Positions 5,606 to 15,761 of a stretch of DNA of 43,246 nucleotides are shown here, one piece after another; positions within the stretch are counted from its first letter, which is position 1, and every line of letters starts with the position of its first letter. The stretch is taken from assembly GCA_003222155.1 (NCBI GenBank), contig QHUU01000093.1:1-43246 (forward strand), written 5' to 3'. This DNA is from Gemmatimonadota bacterium. Its GTDB lineage: Bacteria > Gemmatimonadota > Gemmatimonadetes > Gemmatimonadales > GWC2-71-9. A model generated the notes under the pieces. That model was not told the DNA's origin. It saw only the letters and a list, made by a program, of their open reading frames with translations, and did no database searches. A program made the position numbers and the translations under genes.

Positions 5606-5810
5606 TGCCCGCCTGATCGGCGAGGACCTGCTTGACCTGGGCCTCGGCGGCGGTGAGGCGCTCCCGCGCCTGCCGCAGGCGCTCGACCCCCTCCTCGAAC
5701 AGCTTGAGGGCGGCGTCGAGGTCGAGCTCCTCGCCCTCGAGCCGGCGCACGATTTCCTCGAGCCGCTCGAGCTGCTCGCCAAAGTTGAGGGGCTCGCGGG
5801 CGCGCGCCAT
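5577..5810 (-). CDS. xseB: Exodeoxyribonuclease VII small subunit
   Basis: This 77-residue acidic, helical protein has the typical pattern NFGEQLERLEEIVRRLE..LDLDAALKLFEEGVERLR, which matches XseB length and composition. It assembles in several copies with XseA to form exonuclease VII, which degrades single-stranded DNA to short oligonucleotides. The ATG shares one base with the xseA stop (5810), and its 3' end overlaps ispA by 29 bp, indicating coupled translation. Confidence 0.94.
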   Translation of the reverse strand: MARAREPLNFGEQLERLEEIVRRLEGEELDLDAALKLFEEGVERLRQARERLTAAEAQVKQVLADQAGNVRVEDLDG

Positions 5811-10090: not shown

Positions 10091-12542
10091 GCTCGTCCTC
10101 CAGAGCCACGAGCCCCTGCGCCAGCGCCGCCTTCACCTCCGCCTCGCGCAGCGTGCGCTCGGGGTCGCGGAACGTGCAGTGCCACGCAACGCTGCGATGC
10201 CCGGCGGGGATGCCCGCCCCGCGATACTCATCGAACACCTCGAGGCGCTCGAGCAACGGGCCCACGGCGCGCTGCAGCACCGCGGCTACCTGCGCGACGC
10301 TCACTCCCGCCGGGAGCACGAGCGCGACATCGTGCTCGACCGCCGGCTGTACCGGGAGCGGACGGTACGCCACGGGACTCCGCCCCGTCAGCGCCAACCG
10401 CACTTCCAACCCGAACAACGGGACTGCCCACGCGGGGGCGTCCGCCTCGAGGGGGCCTGCCTGCCCCACCACGTCCCCTCCGGGTTGCACCGCCACCCAA
10501 CCCACCTCCCCACCCGTTGCCGGTTCCACGTTACACCCGGGGGCGGCGAGCTCTACCGCTAACTCAAAGTGGTGCTTCAAGTCCCATATGTCCATATCAG
10601 GTAGTTTCGCACCCTGGGACCAATGGGGCGGCTGGCGGGCGCCCGTGAGGACAGCCGCGACGGAGGTCCATTCCTCCACCGGGGAACCGGCGGGCTTCCG
10701 GAACACGGTCCCCACCTCGAACAGGCGAATATCGCGGTTGCCGTTCGCCCAATTGTGCTCGACTCGTCGCACCAGGCCCGGCAGCAGCCGCCGCCGCAGG
10801 TGCGCTTCCTCGGCCGACAGCGGGTTGAGAATCGTCACCGAGTCCGGCCCGTCCGGAGGGCCGAGCGGGATCGTCCGGGCCTCGAGCAAGCCGAGGCGGA
10901 CCAGCCCCTCGCGCACCCGAGCGCGGGCCAGCTCCTCGGGCGCGTCGGGGACCGTCCCCGGGCGATAGGGACGCAGCTCATCGGGGAAGGCGTCGTACCC
11001 CTTCAGCCGGGCGACCTCCTCGATCAGGTCCACCTCCCGGGTCACGTCGGGACGCCAGCCCGGCACCTGGACCGCGAGCCGGCCGTCCTTGGGCGCCAGA
11101 AAGAACCCCACGGCCGTGAGCCGCCGCTCGATCTCGGCCGGCTCGACGGGCACGCCGAGCAGGTGGGCGACACGCTCGGGACGCAAGAATATTGTCTTTT
11201 CCTGCTGCGGCTCGGGCCACAGATCGAGCGGGGGCTCGCGCAGCTCCCCGCCCGCTACGGCGACGATCAGCTCGATGGCGCGACGCAGCGCATCCGGCAT
11301 GCCGAGCATGTCGATCCCGCGCTCGAAGCGGTAGCTCGACTCGCTCGACAGCTCGAGCGCGCGGCGGGTGCGCCGGATGCGGGTGGGCTGGAAGTAGGCG
11401 CACTCCAGGACCAGGTCGGTCGTGGCCGGGCTCACCTCCGAATCGGCGCTCCCCATGACTCCCGCGACGATGGTAGGCCGCTTGGCGTCACAGATCGCGG
11501 TCATGTCCGAAGTGAGCGTCCGGGTCAGACCGTCGAGCGTGACGATCTTCTCCCCCGGCTTGGCCCGGCGTACGACCACCGCCGGGCCGTTCAGCTTCGC
11601 CAAATCGAACGCGTGCAGCGGCTGGTTCAGCTCGAACAGGATGTAGTTCGTGGCGTCCACGACATTGTTGATCGACCGCTGCCCGATCGCAGTCAGACGG
11701 CCACTGAGCCACCCGGGGCTGGGGGCGACCTTTACCCCGCGGATCACGGCGATCATGTAGCGGGGGGCGCCTTCCGGGTCCTCGAGGCGAACCTCTACGC
11801 CGTCGACGACTCCGCTCGTCGCGGCGGCAGGACGGCTCCGGCCGGCGGCCACGCCGGGCTCGGCGGCCGTCGCCGTCCCACCGCCGCGACGGCTGGGGGC
11901 ACCGCGAGGGCCGCCGAGGGCGGCGTCCCCGCCGGCCCGAGCGGTGCCGCCAGCCGGAGCTGGAATGGGCGGCAGCTTAACCGTCCCGCCCAGGACGGCC
12001 GCCAGCTCGCGGGCGACGCCCTTGTGGCACAGCAGGTCGGGGCGGTTCGCGGGCACGTCGATGACGATCTGATGATCCGCCACGGGCACCACGTCCAGGA
12101 ACCGGCTCCCCGGGGGCGCGGTGGTGTCGAGCTCGAGGATCCCGGCGTGGTCCTCGCCGAGGCCCAGCTCCTTGGCCGAGCACAGCATGCCGTTGGACTC
12201 GACGCCGCGGATCTTGCGGCGCTCGAGCTTCACGCCGCCCGGCAGCGTGGCGCCGACCGGCGCGTAGGGGTACGTCTTGCCCGCCTGGACGTTGGGTGCG
12301 CCGCACACCACCTCGACCGGTCCTCCGGCCCCACCGGCGTCGACCCGACACAGCGACAGGCGATCGGCATTGGGGTGCTTCTGCACGTCGAGCACGCGCC
12401 CGATCAGGACGTCGCCCAAGTCCTGGTGCCGGGGGATGACGGCGTCCACGGCCGCGGCGTGCATCGTGAGACTCTCGGCGAGCTCGCGCGCGTCCAGCGG
12501 GCGGCCGAGCAGCGCCTCCAGCCAGCGGCGTGAGACGATCAC
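10065..12542 (-). CDS. pheT: Phenylalanyl-tRNA synthetase beta chain, with a repeat-derived insertion
   Basis: The 825-residue beta subunit of the (alpha-beta)2 enzyme charges tRNA-Phe. It shows the N-terminal VSRRWLEALLG, the EMAP-like tRNA-binding domain (GRVLDVQKHPNADRLSLCRVD, VVCGAPNV), B3/B4 editing regions (YRFERGID), B5 and the C-terminal anticodon-binding fold. The GTG start overlaps the pheS stop by 4 bp. An Ala/Gly/Arg-rich low-complexity stretch of roughly 55 residues sits between KLPPIPAPAGGT and VEVRLEDPEGAPRY. It contains a 39-bp block nearly identical to one in mutS2, so it is probably a mobile-repeat insertion tolerated in a surface loop. Confidence 0.96.
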   Translation of the reverse strand: MIVSRRWLEALLGRPLDARELAESLTMHAAAVDAVIPRHQDLGDVLIGRVLDVQKHPNADRLSLCRVDAGGAGGPVEVVCGAPNVQAGKTYPYAPVGATLPGGVKLERRKIRGVESNGMLCSAKELGLGEDHAGILELDTTAPPGSRFLDVVPVADHQIVIDVPANRPDLLCHKGVARELAAVLGGTVKLPPIPAPAGGTARAGGDAALGGPRGAPSRRGGGTATAAEPGVAAGRSRPAAATSGVVDGVEVRLEDPEGAPRYMIAVIRGVKVAPSPGWLSGRLTAIGQRSINNVVDATNYILFELNQPLHAFDLAKLNGPAVVVRRAKPGEKIVTLDGLTRTLTSDMTAICDAKRPTIVAGVMGSADSEVSPATTDLVLECAYFQPTRIRRTRRALELSSESSYRFERGIDMLGMPDALRRAIELIVAVAGGELREPPLDLWPEPQQEKTIFLRPERVAHLLGVPVEPAEIERRLTAVGFFLAPKDGRLAVQVPGWRPDVTREVDLIEEVARLKGYDAFPDELRPYRPGTVPDAPEELARARVREGLVRLGLLEARTIPLGPPDGPDSVTILNPLSAEEAHLRRRLLPGLVRRVEHNWANGNRDIRLFEVGTVFRKPAGSPVEEWTSVAAVLTGARQPPHWSQGAKLPDMDIWDLKHHFELAVELAAPGCNVEPATGGEVGWVAVQPGGDVVGQAGPLEADAPAWAVPLFGLEVRLALTGRSPVAYRPLPVQPAVEHDVALVLPAGVSVAQVAAVLQRAVGPLLERLEVFDEYRGAGIPAGHRSVAWHCTFRDPERTLREAEVKAALAQGLVALEDELGVRRREG
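11824..11950. repeat. Family B GC-rich inverted-repeat element inside pheT
   Basis: The block 11835-11873 differs at one position from 27460-27498 in mutS2. The flanks GGACGG and CCGTCC form short inverted ends here. A second dyad (GGCACCGC at about 11899 and GCGGTGCC at about 11941) follows immediately. The block is read in the frame giving AATAAEPGVAAGRSR in pheT, a different frame from the mutS2 copy. Confidence 0.8.
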
Positions 12543-13567
12543 CGGACCCCGCCCGCGAACTGCGCGAGGAAGCGCACGTCGCTCTCGTGGAGCAGCCGGA
12601 TGTCGGCGATGCCGTGGCGAGTCATGGCGATGCGCGCGGGGCCCATGCCCCATGCGAAGCCCGAGTACCGCTCGCTCGAGACGCCGCAGTTCTCGAGCAC
12701 GGCGGGATGAACCAGCCCCGAGCCGAGGATCTCCATCCAGCCCGTCTGCTTGCAGGTAGCGCACCCCGCGCCCTTGCAGATCTGGCACTGCACGTCCATC
12801 TCGGCCGACGGCTCTGTGAACGGAAAGAACGACGGCCGGAACCGCACCCGGGTGTCGGCGGTGAAGAAGCGCCGGGCGAAGGTGGCGAGGGTGGCCTTGA
12901 AATCGACGAAGCTGAGTCCCTCGTCGACGGCCAGGCCCTCGATCTGCTCGAACACGGGGGAGTGGGACGCGTCGAACGGGTCGCGCCGGTACACCTGGCC
13001 CGGAATGACGACGCGGATGGGCGGCGGGTAGCGCTCCAGCGTGCGGATCTGCACCGGCGACGTGTGCGTGCGGAGCAGGAGGCCGTCGCCAAGATAAAAC
13101 GAGTCCTGCGCGTCGAGCGCGGGATGGTCCTTGGGGAAGTTGAGCGCGAAGAAGTTGTACCGCTCGGTCTCGGCTTCCGGCCCGACCGCACGGGTGAAGC
13201 CCAGCTCGCGAAAGATGTCGCAGATCTCGTTCACGACCTGCGTGACGAGGTGGAGGCCGCCCCGCCAGACGGCGCGCCCGGGCATGGTCAGGTCGAGGCC
13301 GGTCACGGAGCCGGCGGCGCGCTTGAGCTCGCGCTCCCGGGCCGCGAACGCGGCTTCGAACTCGCGCTTCAGCGCGTTCGCCGCCGCGCCGACTTCTTTT
13401 CTGGAAGACGGGTCGAGCTTCGGGACGCGCCCGAGAATCTGGGTGAGTGTGCCGGCTTTGCGCCCGAGGATCTCGGTCTTGAGATCCTGGAGCCGGCGTT
13501 CGTCCGCCTGCGGAATCTCCTGCAGACGCTCCCGCAGCTCGGTGAGGGCCGCCAGGAGGTCGCGCAT
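12539..13567 (-). CDS. pheS: Phenylalanyl-tRNA synthetase alpha chain
   Basis: This 342-residue class II synthetase catalytic subunit has an N-terminal coiled coil (ELRERLQEIPQADERRLQDLKTE). Class II motif 2 is around FDASHSPVFEQIEGLAVD and motif 3 is FAWGMGPARIAMTRHGI. Cysteine pairs CQICKGAGCATCKQTGW near residue 265 resemble the metal-binding loop seen in some PheS proteins. The ATG lies two bases after the rplT stop, and the 3' end overlaps pheT by GTGA. The infC-rpmI-rplT-pheS-pheT order is classical. Confidence 0.97.
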   Translation of the reverse strand: MRDLLAALTELRERLQEIPQADERRLQDLKTEILGRKAGTLTQILGRVPKLDPSSRKEVGAAANALKREFEAAFAARERELKRAAGSVTGLDLTMPGRAVWRGGLHLVTQVVNEICDIFRELGFTRAVGPEAETERYNFFALNFPKDHPALDAQDSFYLGDGLLLRTHTSPVQIRTLERYPPPIRVVIPGQVYRRDPFDASHSPVFEQIEGLAVDEGLSFVDFKATLATFARRFFTADTRVRFRPSFFPFTEPSAEMDVQCQICKGAGCATCKQTGWMEILGSGLVHPAVLENCGVSSERYSGFAWGMGPARIAMTRHGIADIRLLHESDVRFLAQFAGGVR

Positions 13568-13569
13568 GG

Positions 13570-13923
13570 TCAGAGTGCCTGCTTGGCGACCTCCGCGAGC
13601 TGCTCGAACGCCACGGGATCACGCACGGCGAGGTCGGCGAGCACCTTGCGGTTGATCTCGACGCCGGCCTTGCGGAGCCCGTTCATCAAGCGGCTGTAGG
13701 ACAGCTGGTGCATCCGCGCGGCGGCGTTGATGCGCGTGATCCAGAGACGGCGGAAGTCCGCCTTGCGGCGGCGCCGGTCGCGGTAGGCGTACTTCTGGGC
13801 GCGCTCGACCGACTCCTTCGCCGCCTTCCACAGCTTGGAGCGCCCGCCAAAGTAGCCCTTGGCGAGCTTCATGATTTTGTTCTTGCGCTTCAGGCGCGCG
13901 ACGTTGCTTTTGACGCGGGGCAT
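13570..13923 (-). CDS. rplT: 50S ribosomal protein L20
   Basis: This 117-residue basic protein starts [28 protein letters not shown] and contains [19 protein letters not shown], both L20 hallmarks. L20 binds 23S rRNA during 50S assembly and represses its own operon in several bacteria. A good Shine-Dalgarno (AGGAG, six bases from ATG) is visible. It lies ten bases after rpmI. Confidence 0.98.
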
Positions 13924-13933
13924 GAGTCGCTCC

Positions 13934-14128
13934 TTACGCCATCAACAGGCGCTTGAGGCGGCGTTCGTCGGCGTGCGAGACGAGCGCCGCTTTGCGCAGG
14001 TGTCGCTTCCGCTTCGGATGCTTCTTCGTCAGAATGTGGCTCTTGTACGCGTGATGACGGCGCAACCGGCCGGTCCCCGTCAGGCGGACGCGTTTGCGCA
14101 ATGCGCGCTTGCTCTTCTGCTTCGGCAT
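13934..14128 (-). CDS. rpmI: 50S ribosomal protein L35
   Basis: This 64-residue, highly basic protein begins [20 protein letters not shown] and contains the conserved [19 protein letters not shown] block of L35. The ATG at 14128 is preceded by GAGAGG at eight bases. It sits between infC and rplT, as expected. Confidence 0.97.
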
Positions 14129-14151: not shown

Positions 14152-14682
14152 CTACTTCGGCGCCAGGACCATCGACATGTTGCGGCCCTCGAGCTTCGGG
14201 TCCTGCTCGATCTTGGCGATGTCCTTCAGCTCGTTGGCCACCCGGTCGAGCACGTCGCGTCCCAAATCGATGTGGGCCATCTGCCGGCCCCGGTACATCA
14301 TCGTCACCTTGACCTTGTTGCCGTCCTGCAGGAACTCGCGCGCATGGCGCGTCTTGAAGGCGAAGTCGTGATCGTCGATCCCCGGGCGGTACTTCACTTC
14401 CTTCAAATGGATGACGTGCTGCTTTTTCTTGGCCGCCCGCGCCGCCTTCGCCTGCTCGAACTTGAACTTCCCGTAATCCATGATCTTTGCGACCGGGGGT
14501 CGCGCGAGCGGGGCTACCTCGACCAGGTCGAGGCCCCGCTCCTGAGCCGCCGCCAACGCCTCCTCGACGGTCAGCACGCCGAGCTGGGCTCCGTCCGGCG
14601 CGATCACGCGAATCGGGCTGATCCGGATCTGCCGGTTCACCCGGACGCGCGGCGCTTTGTTGTTTGGGCTTTCGATCGCCAG
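14152..14682 (-). CDS. infC: Translation initiation factor IF-3, probably with a non-canonical CTG start
   Basis: IF-3 promotes 30S fidelity and subunit dissociation. The N-domain (RVNRQIRISPIRVIAPDGAQLGVL), linker (KAARAAKKK) and C-domain (KYRPGIDDHDFAFK, VKVTMMYRGRQMAH) are intact. A GTG at 14640 begins only at VNRQIRI and has no Shine-Dalgarno. The frame stays open up to a TGA at 14698-14700, and the N-terminal residues SPNNKAPRVR look like genuine IF-3 sequence. A strong AGGAGGAG lies eight bases before CTG at 14682 and fourteen before ATC at 14676. A rare start codon would fit the known IF-3 autoregulation through poor start codons (AUU in E. coli). With CTG the protein is 176 residues. 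Confidence 0.9.
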   Translation of the reverse strand: MAIESPNNKAPRVRVNRQIRISPIRVIAPDGAQLGVLTVEEALAAAQERGLDLVEVAPLARPPVAKIMDYGKFKFEQAKAARAAKKKQHVIHLKEVKYRPGIDDHDFAFKTRHAREFLQDGNKVKVTMMYRGRQMAHIDLGRDVLDRVANELKDIAKIEQDPKLEGRNMSMVLAPK

Positions 14683-14700
14683 GTGTCGATCTCCTCCTCA

Positions 14701-14743
14701 AGAAGAAAAGAAAAAGCGGACTCCGCCGGCTCGGGAGTCCGCT
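14701..14743 (-). terminator. Intrinsic terminator / attenuator in the infC leader
   Basis: On the minus strand a perfect 10-bp stem AGCGGACTCC/GGAGTCCGCT encloses a 9-nt loop and is followed by TTTTTCTTTTCTTCTT. The T-tract touches the infC Shine-Dalgarno, so no promoter fits between hairpin and gene. Transcripts of infC-rpmI-rplT-pheST must read through it, making it an attenuator candidate rather than a simple end for the upstream MBL gene. Confidence 0.8.
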
Positions 14744-14744
14744 T

Positions 14745-14792
14745 CCCTCACGCCCCGCTCTCCCGCCTCGCGGAGAGAGTCAGGGGGTGAAG
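14745..14792. repeat. Family D-like element in the infC leader
   Basis: The ends CCTCACGCCCC and GGGGGTGAAG are imperfect inverted copies. Inside, CTCTCCCGC..GCGGAGAG forms a hairpin. The motif GTCAGGGGGTGA is shared with the direct repeats in mutS2 at 28510-28565. It lies just upstream (in minus-strand sense) of the attenuator hairpin and could take part in alternative leader folding. The rest of the leader, 14793-14876, holds no recognised promoter. Confidence 0.5.
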
Positions 14793-14876
14793 TCTCGGAA
14801 CCCTAGAGCGCTCTCACGTGGAGAGGCGGCGGGTGAGGCGCGCGCGGCGCCCGCTTGCCGTATTGTCGCGCGCAAG

Positions 14877-15761
14877 TTAGCCCGCCCCGAGCGGCTCCAC
14901 AAGCCCGAACCCCTTCCCCTCGCGCCCCAATCGCCCCGCGATCACGGACGCGTCGTGCTCGAAGAACAGCAGCCACGCCTCCGCCTCCGCCCGTTGGTAC
15001 AGGCGGCGTTTCGACTCGAGGGTCACCAGCGGCTCCAGGTCGTAGCCCATGATCCACGGCAGCGGCAGGTGGGCGGCGGTCGGCACCAGGTCCGCCACGA
15101 AGCAGACGCGCTCCCCGGCGCTCTCGACCAGGACCGACTGGTGAAAGGGGACGTGCCCCGGCGTGGGGAGGCAGCGGATGCCGGGCAGCGGCTCGGCTTC
15201 GCCGGCCACGAGGGTGAACGACACAGGCTCGAAATTGGGCGGCAGGTAGCTGGCGGCCGTGCGCTCGTTGGTGTGACGGGCGAACTCGAGCTCACCCTTT
15301 TGCACCACGTAGGTCGCCCGCGGAAACGTGACCCGAATGGCGCCTCCACCACCTCCACCCTCCTCCACAACCTCCCGATAGGTATTGCCGCCGGCGTGAT
15401 CGAAGTGGAGGTGGGTGTTGATCACCCAGCGCACGTCGCGCGGCGCGTGGCCGAGCTCGGCCAGCGCGTCCTCCAGGCACGTCCGCCCGTCCTTCCCCTC
15501 GTTCACGACTCCGTAGATGTCCTTGAACTTGGCATCCTCCTTGTTGCCGAGCCCGGTGTCTACCAGCACGAGGCCGTCGTCATGCTCGATCAGGAGGGAG
15601 CGCAGCGCCAACGGGATCCGGTTCCGGTCGTCCGCCGCGATCCGCCGCTGCCACAGCGGCTTGGGCACCACGCCGAACATGGCGCCGCCGTCGAGGGCCT
15701 GGCGGCCACCCTCCAGCGCGTGGCACGTGAGGCGGCCCACTCTGAAGGTCGTGTGGGTCAT
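14877..15761 (-). CDS. MBL-fold metallo-hydrolase
   Basis: This roughly 294-residue metallo-beta-lactamase-fold enzyme has the metal-binding signature THLHFDHAGGNT near residue 108, VDTGLGNKEDAKF near residue 58, PTPGHVPFHQS near residue 190 and late FVADLVPTAAHL. The pattern resembles lactonase or quorum-quenching-like MBL proteins, but the substrate is not predictable. The likely start is ATG at 15761, which directly follows a repeat arm and has no Shine-Dalgarno. An alternative start at 15857 would add about 32 residues encoded by the repeat (RNAEQ.., LPRSAFRV). A short GGTGGA microsatellite encodes a six-glycine insertion near residue 130. Confidence 0.85.
   Translation of the reverse strand: MTHTTFRVGRLTCHALEGGRQALDGGAMFGVVPKPLWQRRIAADDRNRIPLALRSLLIEHDDGLVLVDTGLGNKEDAKFKDIYGVVNEGKDGRTCLEDALAELGHAPRDVRWVINTHLHFDHAGGNTYREVVEEGGGGGGAIRVTFPRATYVVQKGELEFARHTNERTAASYLPPNFEPVSFTLVAGEAEPLPGIRCLPTPGHVPFHQSVLVESAGERVCFVADLVPTAAHLPLPWIMGYDLEPLVTLESKRRLYQRAEAEAWLLFFEHDASVIAGRLGREGKGFGLVEPLGAG

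Follow-up and report, generated by a model that had tools for sequence, protein, structure and literature searches.

A conserved leader before the infC operon of Gemmatimonadota resembles the L20 attenuator of Bacillota

In Bacillus subtilis, the ribosomal protein L20 binds the junction of two helices in a leader RNA with two alternative folds, and the terminator is thereby stabilised (available portions of PMC6097659 and PMC10931766). The available text of PMC6097659 treats the L20-interacting RNA as narrowly distributed, in Firmicutes, and PMC3766115 gives the L20 leader a range of Firmicutes plus Thermotogales, with transfer as a possible cause, while suggesting that lineages seemingly devoid of a leader be re-examined. 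A different L20 scaffold is described in Deltaproteobacteria, in a paper in which no word beginning with Gemmatimonad occurs (PMC7247131). A second type of feedback at the same operon involves the initiation factor IF3, which represses noncanonical start codons including its own, and autocontrol in this way is established (PMC5472188, in the portion available). We found no report of an L20 leader in Gemmatimonadota or Actinomycetota in the open-licence literature. Here we describe an L20-type attenuator in the first of these phyla, where it is missed by the current Rfam model.

The window, i.e. the whole stretch of 43,246 nucleotides that was analysed, is a contig from the metagenome-assembled genome of a soil bacterium of the Gemmatimonadota (3.45 Mb, 130 contigs), and the relatives of its infC gene come from records titled Gemmatimonadetes. 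The genes infC, rpmI, rplT and pheS were confirmed by Pfam, and the membership of pheT in the operon is taken from the list of open reading frames. The neighbour upstream of infC, also on the minus strand, is a gene of the metallo-beta-lactamase fold that ends at 14877. The features discussed below are collected in Table 1.

Table 1. Features of the infC leader and operon in the window.
Feature	Position	Strand	Details
Promoter-like pair TTGTGG-17-TAACTT	14874..14902	-	TTGTGG 14902-14897, TAACTT 14879-14874; presumed function
AAGC and P1 hairpin	14836..14856	-	AAGC 14856-14853; arms 14852-14847 and 14841-14836; loop 14846-14842
CACCC, inner hairpin, closing strand GGGTTC (stem P2)	14798..14835	-	CACCC 14835-14831; GGGTTC 14803-14798
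Predicted antiterminator	14733..14803	-	GGG.UCCG in 14803-14796 with CGGA 14741-14738 and CCC 14735-14733
Linker palindrome ('family D')	14742..14792	-	not conserved
Intrinsic terminator	14700..14744	-	arms AAGCGGACTCC (14744-14734) and GGAGTCCGCTT (14724-14714); T-rich tract 14715-14700
infC Shine-Dalgarno (SD) GAGGAGGAG	14691..14699	-	read from sequence
infC (IF3)	14152..14682	-	Pfam IF3_N, IF3_C; start codon CTG at 14682-14680
rpmI (bL35)	13934..14128	-	Pfam
rplT (bL20), presumed ligand	13570..13923	-	Pfam
pheS	12539..13567	-	Pfam

The original prediction placed a terminator hairpin with a perfect 10-bp stem directly before the infC operon, leaving no space for a promoter. The hairpin is present, and its arms show 100% complementarity in a stem of 11 bp, one more than predicted, with a spacer of 9 nt; its T-rich tract holds 13 T in 16 nt and directly adjoins the SD, so that no promoter fits between hairpin and gene. 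A promoter-like pair is found ahead of the entire leader. The terminator score of the window is 35.3, a value reached by none of 300 dinucleotide shuffles (maximum 31.8), and in 53 of 59 related infC regions the score exceeds that of all 25 shuffles. It belongs to a longer leader, from about 14866 to 14700, in which it serves as expression platform.

This leader is conserved. When infC was sought in 61 genomes, it was found in 59, and the 59 upstream regions were read. In 57 of them AAG is followed by one base, a hairpin with at least 5 of 6 pairs and CACCY, against 0.28 expected from composition-matched shuffles, giving an architecture AAGY-[P1 hairpin]-CACCC...GGGU. AAG occurs in all 57 leaders (AAGC 37, AAGT 18, AAGA 2), and the strand after P1 is CACCC in 55 and CACCT in 2. 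The sequence of P1 varies while its pairing is kept: in the 39 leaders of families f1, to which the window belongs, and f3, 98.7% of the cells are paired, two-sided changes are seen at all six pairs, and covariation over the whole structure is 0.354 versus 0.142 in shuffled alignments (0 of 500 shuffles as high). The 16 leaders of family f2 behave likewise (95.5% paired; 0.563 versus 0.185; 0 of 500 as high). P2, which in the window pairs A14834-C14831 with G14803-T14800, has ACCC/GGGU kept in 38-39 of the 39 f1/f3 leaders; because these letters are nearly invariant they bring no covariation support, and P2 in these families is drawn from folding and from its resemblance to the known family. 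The closing strand of f2 is GGNGU and the straight CACCC/GGNGU register is mismatched in 16 of 16 leaders; a register shifted by two gives better pairing (94.8% versus 86.3% of cells over the whole structure), with one compensatory change. Two loci without a leader (L003, L014) were left out of all leader alignments, L058 was left out of alignments A2 and A3, and L050, a near copy of L049, out of A3.

The two exceptions, which lack P1 or the whole leader, are different from each other. In L003 (genome G006), from the same genus and with an infC 99% identical, the terminator is kept and about 45 nt carrying the -10, AAG, P1 and CACCC are missing, through either a real deletion or an assembly collapse of the G+C-rich hairpin. 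In L014 (G028), a palindrome like the linker palindrome of the window stands in place of leader and terminator before infC, perhaps because a repeat was inserted there and an attenuator was lost with it.

The promoter-like pair is sigma70-like and overlaps the stop codon of the preceding gene, that of the metallo-beta-lactamase fold, with a predicted +1 near 14866, some 165 nt before the SD of infC. A stricter pattern, TTG-[16-18]-TA--[ACT]T, lies 8-21 nt before AAG in 49 of the 57 leaders, where shuffles expect 0.07, and the spacer of the pair is 17 nt in 45 leaders. Since the pair precedes AAG in so many leaders, the order promoter, leader, terminator, SD and infC can be proposed. Alternatively, the hairpin could be a plain terminator of the upstream gene that insulates infC, the latter being expressed from another site or through read-through at a steady level. 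The strength of the terminator and the overlap of the promoter with the upstream gene would suit such a role, but a promoter-like pair stands between gene and terminator in the 49 leaders, the P1/CACCC leader is conserved, there is no promoter space past the terminator, and so strong a stop would silence essential genes if it were uncontrolled. We consider this explanation very improbable. The conserved leader, the promoter-like pair upstream of it and the predicted antiterminator described below support instead the idea, already put forward, that read-through is controlled in the manner of an attenuator.

Folding predicts two mutually exclusive states, as had been anticipated. The full leader of the window folds into P2, the linker palindrome and the terminator, and the same leader cut before the 3' arm of the terminator folds into the antiterminator, a predicted pairing of the P2 closing strand GGGUUCCG to the 5' arm of the terminator that encloses the palindrome and excludes both P2 and the terminator. 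In the window copy alone the signal is weak: the fold gives 6.1 expected pairs, as many being reached by 2 of 20 strand shuffles, and the duplex of -9.9 kcal/mol is equalled by 11.5% of shuffles (p about 0.115). In the family, at least 4 expected antiterminator pairs are found in 34 of 55 leaders versus 9.8 with the P2 strand shuffled (20 replicates, range 6 to 16). The effect is clearest in f2, with 14 of 16 leaders versus 1.9 expected, where GGAGUCC meets GGACUCC; outside f2 it concerns 20 of 39 leaders versus 7.9 expected. When arms are swapped among genomes, the mean loss is only 0.55 kcal/mol (76 of 5000 permutations equal), a modest effect because the arms are similar within families; L058 and L050 were left out of the duplex, arm-swap and fold tests. 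The modelled antiterminator is in our opinion likely for the family and plausible for the window copy. The alternative fold first suggested, the 'family D' hairpin, was discarded. It belongs to the linker and is present in either predicted state, its place is taken by a different palindrome in other members of the genus, and the predicted antiterminator strand at 14803-14796 is upstream of it. This palindrome is tolerated, and may be of use as a spacer drawing the two antiterminator strands near each other.

The closest described family is the L20 leader RF00558, whose alignment reads AAG-A-[AGAAGC..GCUUCU]-C-g-CC-U...AGG followed by a terminator, in position before infC. The leader before infC in Syntrophomonas reads AAGC-AGAAGC..GCUUCU-CACCUUA...UAAGGU, and a Bacillota leader (L097), AAGC-AGGAGC..GCUUCU-CACCCU...AGGGUU, follows the Gemmatimonadota pattern and is identical at the conserved positions. 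Searches with the RF00558 model gave no match in the window at the gathering threshold and none at E 10 within 14500-15000, none above cut-off over 21 genomes, and no infC leader as RF00558 when the upstream loci of 20 relatives were compared with Rfam at E 10, where the matches were unrelated and sub-threshold. At E 1, the 21 genomes gave 4 weak matches in 3 genomes, among which only that of G041 (17.7 bits) lies at infC; it was rejected, as its alignment leans on the terminator and on another AAG. Even in 15 genomes of Bacillota and Actinomycetota, where 10 match at E up to 0.001, none is above cut-off.

A covariance model (R1) was trained on 39 leaders, all of them from Gemmatimonadota. It matches the window, a training member, at 14798-14858 with 63.7 bits; a weak second match at 5624-5673 on the minus strand (17.0 bits, E 0.02) is probably due to chance. 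In 48 infC loci of other phyla, 15 R1 matches fell on the same strand as infC and 142-302 nt before the infC match, and 4 fell elsewhere, the upstream zone being 2% of the searched strand-bases; the matches precede infC in Bacillota and Actinomycetota. A model retrained with 13 of the 48 loci (R2), whose alignment A4 includes one off-target match (L026 557-597), gave 23 upstream matches, 10 of them outside the training set, and 6 elsewhere, all at E of 0.7 or more, the E-values of both home-made models being rough. No upstream R2 match was obtained in those of the 48 loci titled Gamma- or Alphaproteobacteria or Cyanobacteria. L104, titled Gastranaerophilales, was excluded as evidence for that group since its leader match equals that of L118; it carries an Oscillospiraceae-like leader, as L085, titled Candidatus Kuenenia, carries a Gemmatimonadota-like infC, and both contigs were probably mislabelled or misbinned. 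In 98 of 150 genomes of the phylum R1 had a match at E up to 1. Adjacency to infC was checked for 20 hits, picked from other parts of the phylum or from new genomes, so the 98 are not a prevalence: infC follows the match in 10 and is absent from the fetched stretch in the other 10. The former include families f4, f6 and f7 of the same class, so the leader is found beyond the order of the window.

All 7 of the R1 and R2 hits compared (4 of R1, 3 of R2 only) fall inside RF00558 matches on the same strand, and the assignment to the L20 type is made mainly because independently built models, the home-made ones and RF00558, point to the same letters. L20, one of three controllers that had been named, is the ligand best supported by the RF00558-like architecture, with a putative binding site at the P1/P2 junction. 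As the operon also encodes IF3 and L35, a genuine attenuator of the ribosomal-protein type could respond to another ligand (bL35, IF3 or another factor), the more so as known L20 sites have two consecutive G-C pairs, from which the f2 leaders depart. With respect to the L20 contacts named in the available portion of PMC7247131, AA is present in 57 of 57 leaders and CC/GG in 38-39 of the 39 f1/f3 leaders, with a mismatch in 16 of 16 in f2. The coincidence with RF00558, whose ligand is L20, at all seven compared loci, and the presence of these elements in f1/f3, make another ligand unlikely in our view. In three Gemmatimonadota 23S genes, AAG was seen by eye beside a helix in the H40-H41 region, and no mimicry is claimed.

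The level of tRNA-Phe, the second controller that had been named, could act on pheST through a T-box or a Phe leader peptide. The presence of pheS in the operon and a 17-codon frame with a GTG start, ending in Phe codons in the T-tract, would be in agreement with it. However, these three consecutive Phe codons come after the terminator stem, no SD was seen for the frame, and what is conserved is a hairpin and not a reading frame. No T-box (RF00230) was matched by Rfam in the window at the gathering threshold or within 14500-15000 at E 10. The candidate leader peptide was rejected, the three-frame translation of 14866-14700 having given no convincing Phe-rich frame ahead of the terminator. Control by tRNA-Phe can be given next to no credence.

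From the preceding in-frame stop to an internal GTG at 14640, the infC frame of the window has no ATG, GTG or TTG. Since no canonical in-frame start is found upstream of the conserved N-terminus, the start is most likely the CTG situated 8 nt past the SD core. CTG is the infC start in 33 of the 36 regions of f1, ATT in 7 of 7 of f3, and ATT or ATC in 13 of 17 of f2; these calls were automatic, from the SD spacing, with 4 regions unassigned, one ATG and one TTG. A CTG conserved in this way implies that gene callers will misplace the start of infC in f1. It also suggests that IF3, the third controller named, may plausibly act, at translation through the CUG start and not at the terminator as had been envisaged. 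A feedback by IF3 alone, with the leader serving mRNA stability, would draw on these starts and on the established autocontrol of noncanonical starts (PMC5472188, available portion), but it leaves the terminator, the complementary antiterminator strand and the P1/P2 motif unexplained. As a sole explanation we find it hardly credible, and such a feedback could act in addition.

Taken together, these data lead us to propose, with good though not full confidence, that the leader of the window is a transcription attenuator of the Bacillus type that responds to L20, combined with IF3 autocontrol through the CUG start. Transcription would begin inside the end of the preceding gene, roughly 165 nt ahead of the infC SD, and the leader would fold P1, with P2 (CACCC with GGGU) as an option. 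By binding where P1 and P2 meet, spare L20 would keep P2 in place and leave the terminator 5' arm free, so that the terminator would form and transcription would stop before infC-rpmI-rplT-pheS(-pheT). Once new 23S rRNA has absorbed the L20, the terminator 5' arm could pair with the closing strand of P2, leading to read-through. In a second feedback, IF3 would discriminate against the CUG start and limit its own translation, L20 limiting transcription of the operon. Transcription control by L20 and a probable translation control by IF3 would thus meet at one junction, where the T-tract touches the infC ribosome-binding site. In this scheme the leader, P1, the terminator, the promoter-like site and the likeness to the L20 family come from comparing sequences and the antiterminator from folding, while the binding of L20 and the direction of its control are inferred.

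In the Actinomycetota, 7 of 9 folded loci, mostly of Acidimicrobiia, show, in the 115 nt before infC, a CUUGC...GCAAG hairpin over part of the SD GCAAGGAG, with the terminator-like U-tract missing or marginal (L108, L112, L126, L129, L131, L132 and L144); in L108, L112 and L126 the L20-type motif was recognised by eye only. These folds suggest that the motif may act there on translation and not on transcription. On balance we lean slightly towards the L20 leader being an old modular RNA element, and not an invention of Bacillota, whose outputs were exchanged between phyla: one aptamer, AAGY-P1-CACC...GGU, would precede infC in Gemmatimonadota, Actinomycetota and Bacillota, with a terminator as output in Gemmatimonadota and Bacillota and an SD-covering hairpin in Acidimicrobiia. 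With the leader present throughout Gemmatimonadota and also in Actinomycetota, how old and how widespread it is can be tested directly. The finding shows that the RF00558 model misses G+C-rich members, and it adds a second system, far removed in evolution, in which to study the reading of an mRNA by a ribosomal protein.

Compared with known systems, the L20 leader candidate of Deltaproteobacteria shares an AA dimer and consecutive G-C pairs as the L20 site, on a different scaffold that sets it apart according to the available portion of its description (PMC7247131). The E. coli L20 operator of rpmI-rplT, a pseudoknot plus a hairpin, presumably has the same ligand protein (PMC10931766, available portion); it acts on the translation of rpmI and lies inside infC, whereas in the window a terminator stands before infC, and a pseudoknot of the E. 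coli style is not needed because the leader motif is of the two-stem Bacillus type. With the start-codon autocontrol of infC (PMC5472188, available portion), the window shares an infC without a canonical start, ATT in E. coli and ATC in Streptomyces versus CTG in the family of the window, where the same control is suggested by the start codon. The closest likeness is to RF00558 of Bacillus subtilis: both lie directly before infC-rpmI-rplT and have AAG, P1, a C-R-CC...GG stem, a linker and a terminator with an exclusive alternative fold, the antiterminator in Gemmatimonadota being predicted by folding. The Gemmatimonadota leaders differ by a G+C-rich and variable P1, a larger inner hairpin in P2 and a linker that is not A/U, to which the Rfam model is blind, and in f2 by a P2 strand changed to GGNGU, while some Bacillota members of RF00558, such as L097, have ACCCU/AGGGU exactly as in Gemmatimonadota.
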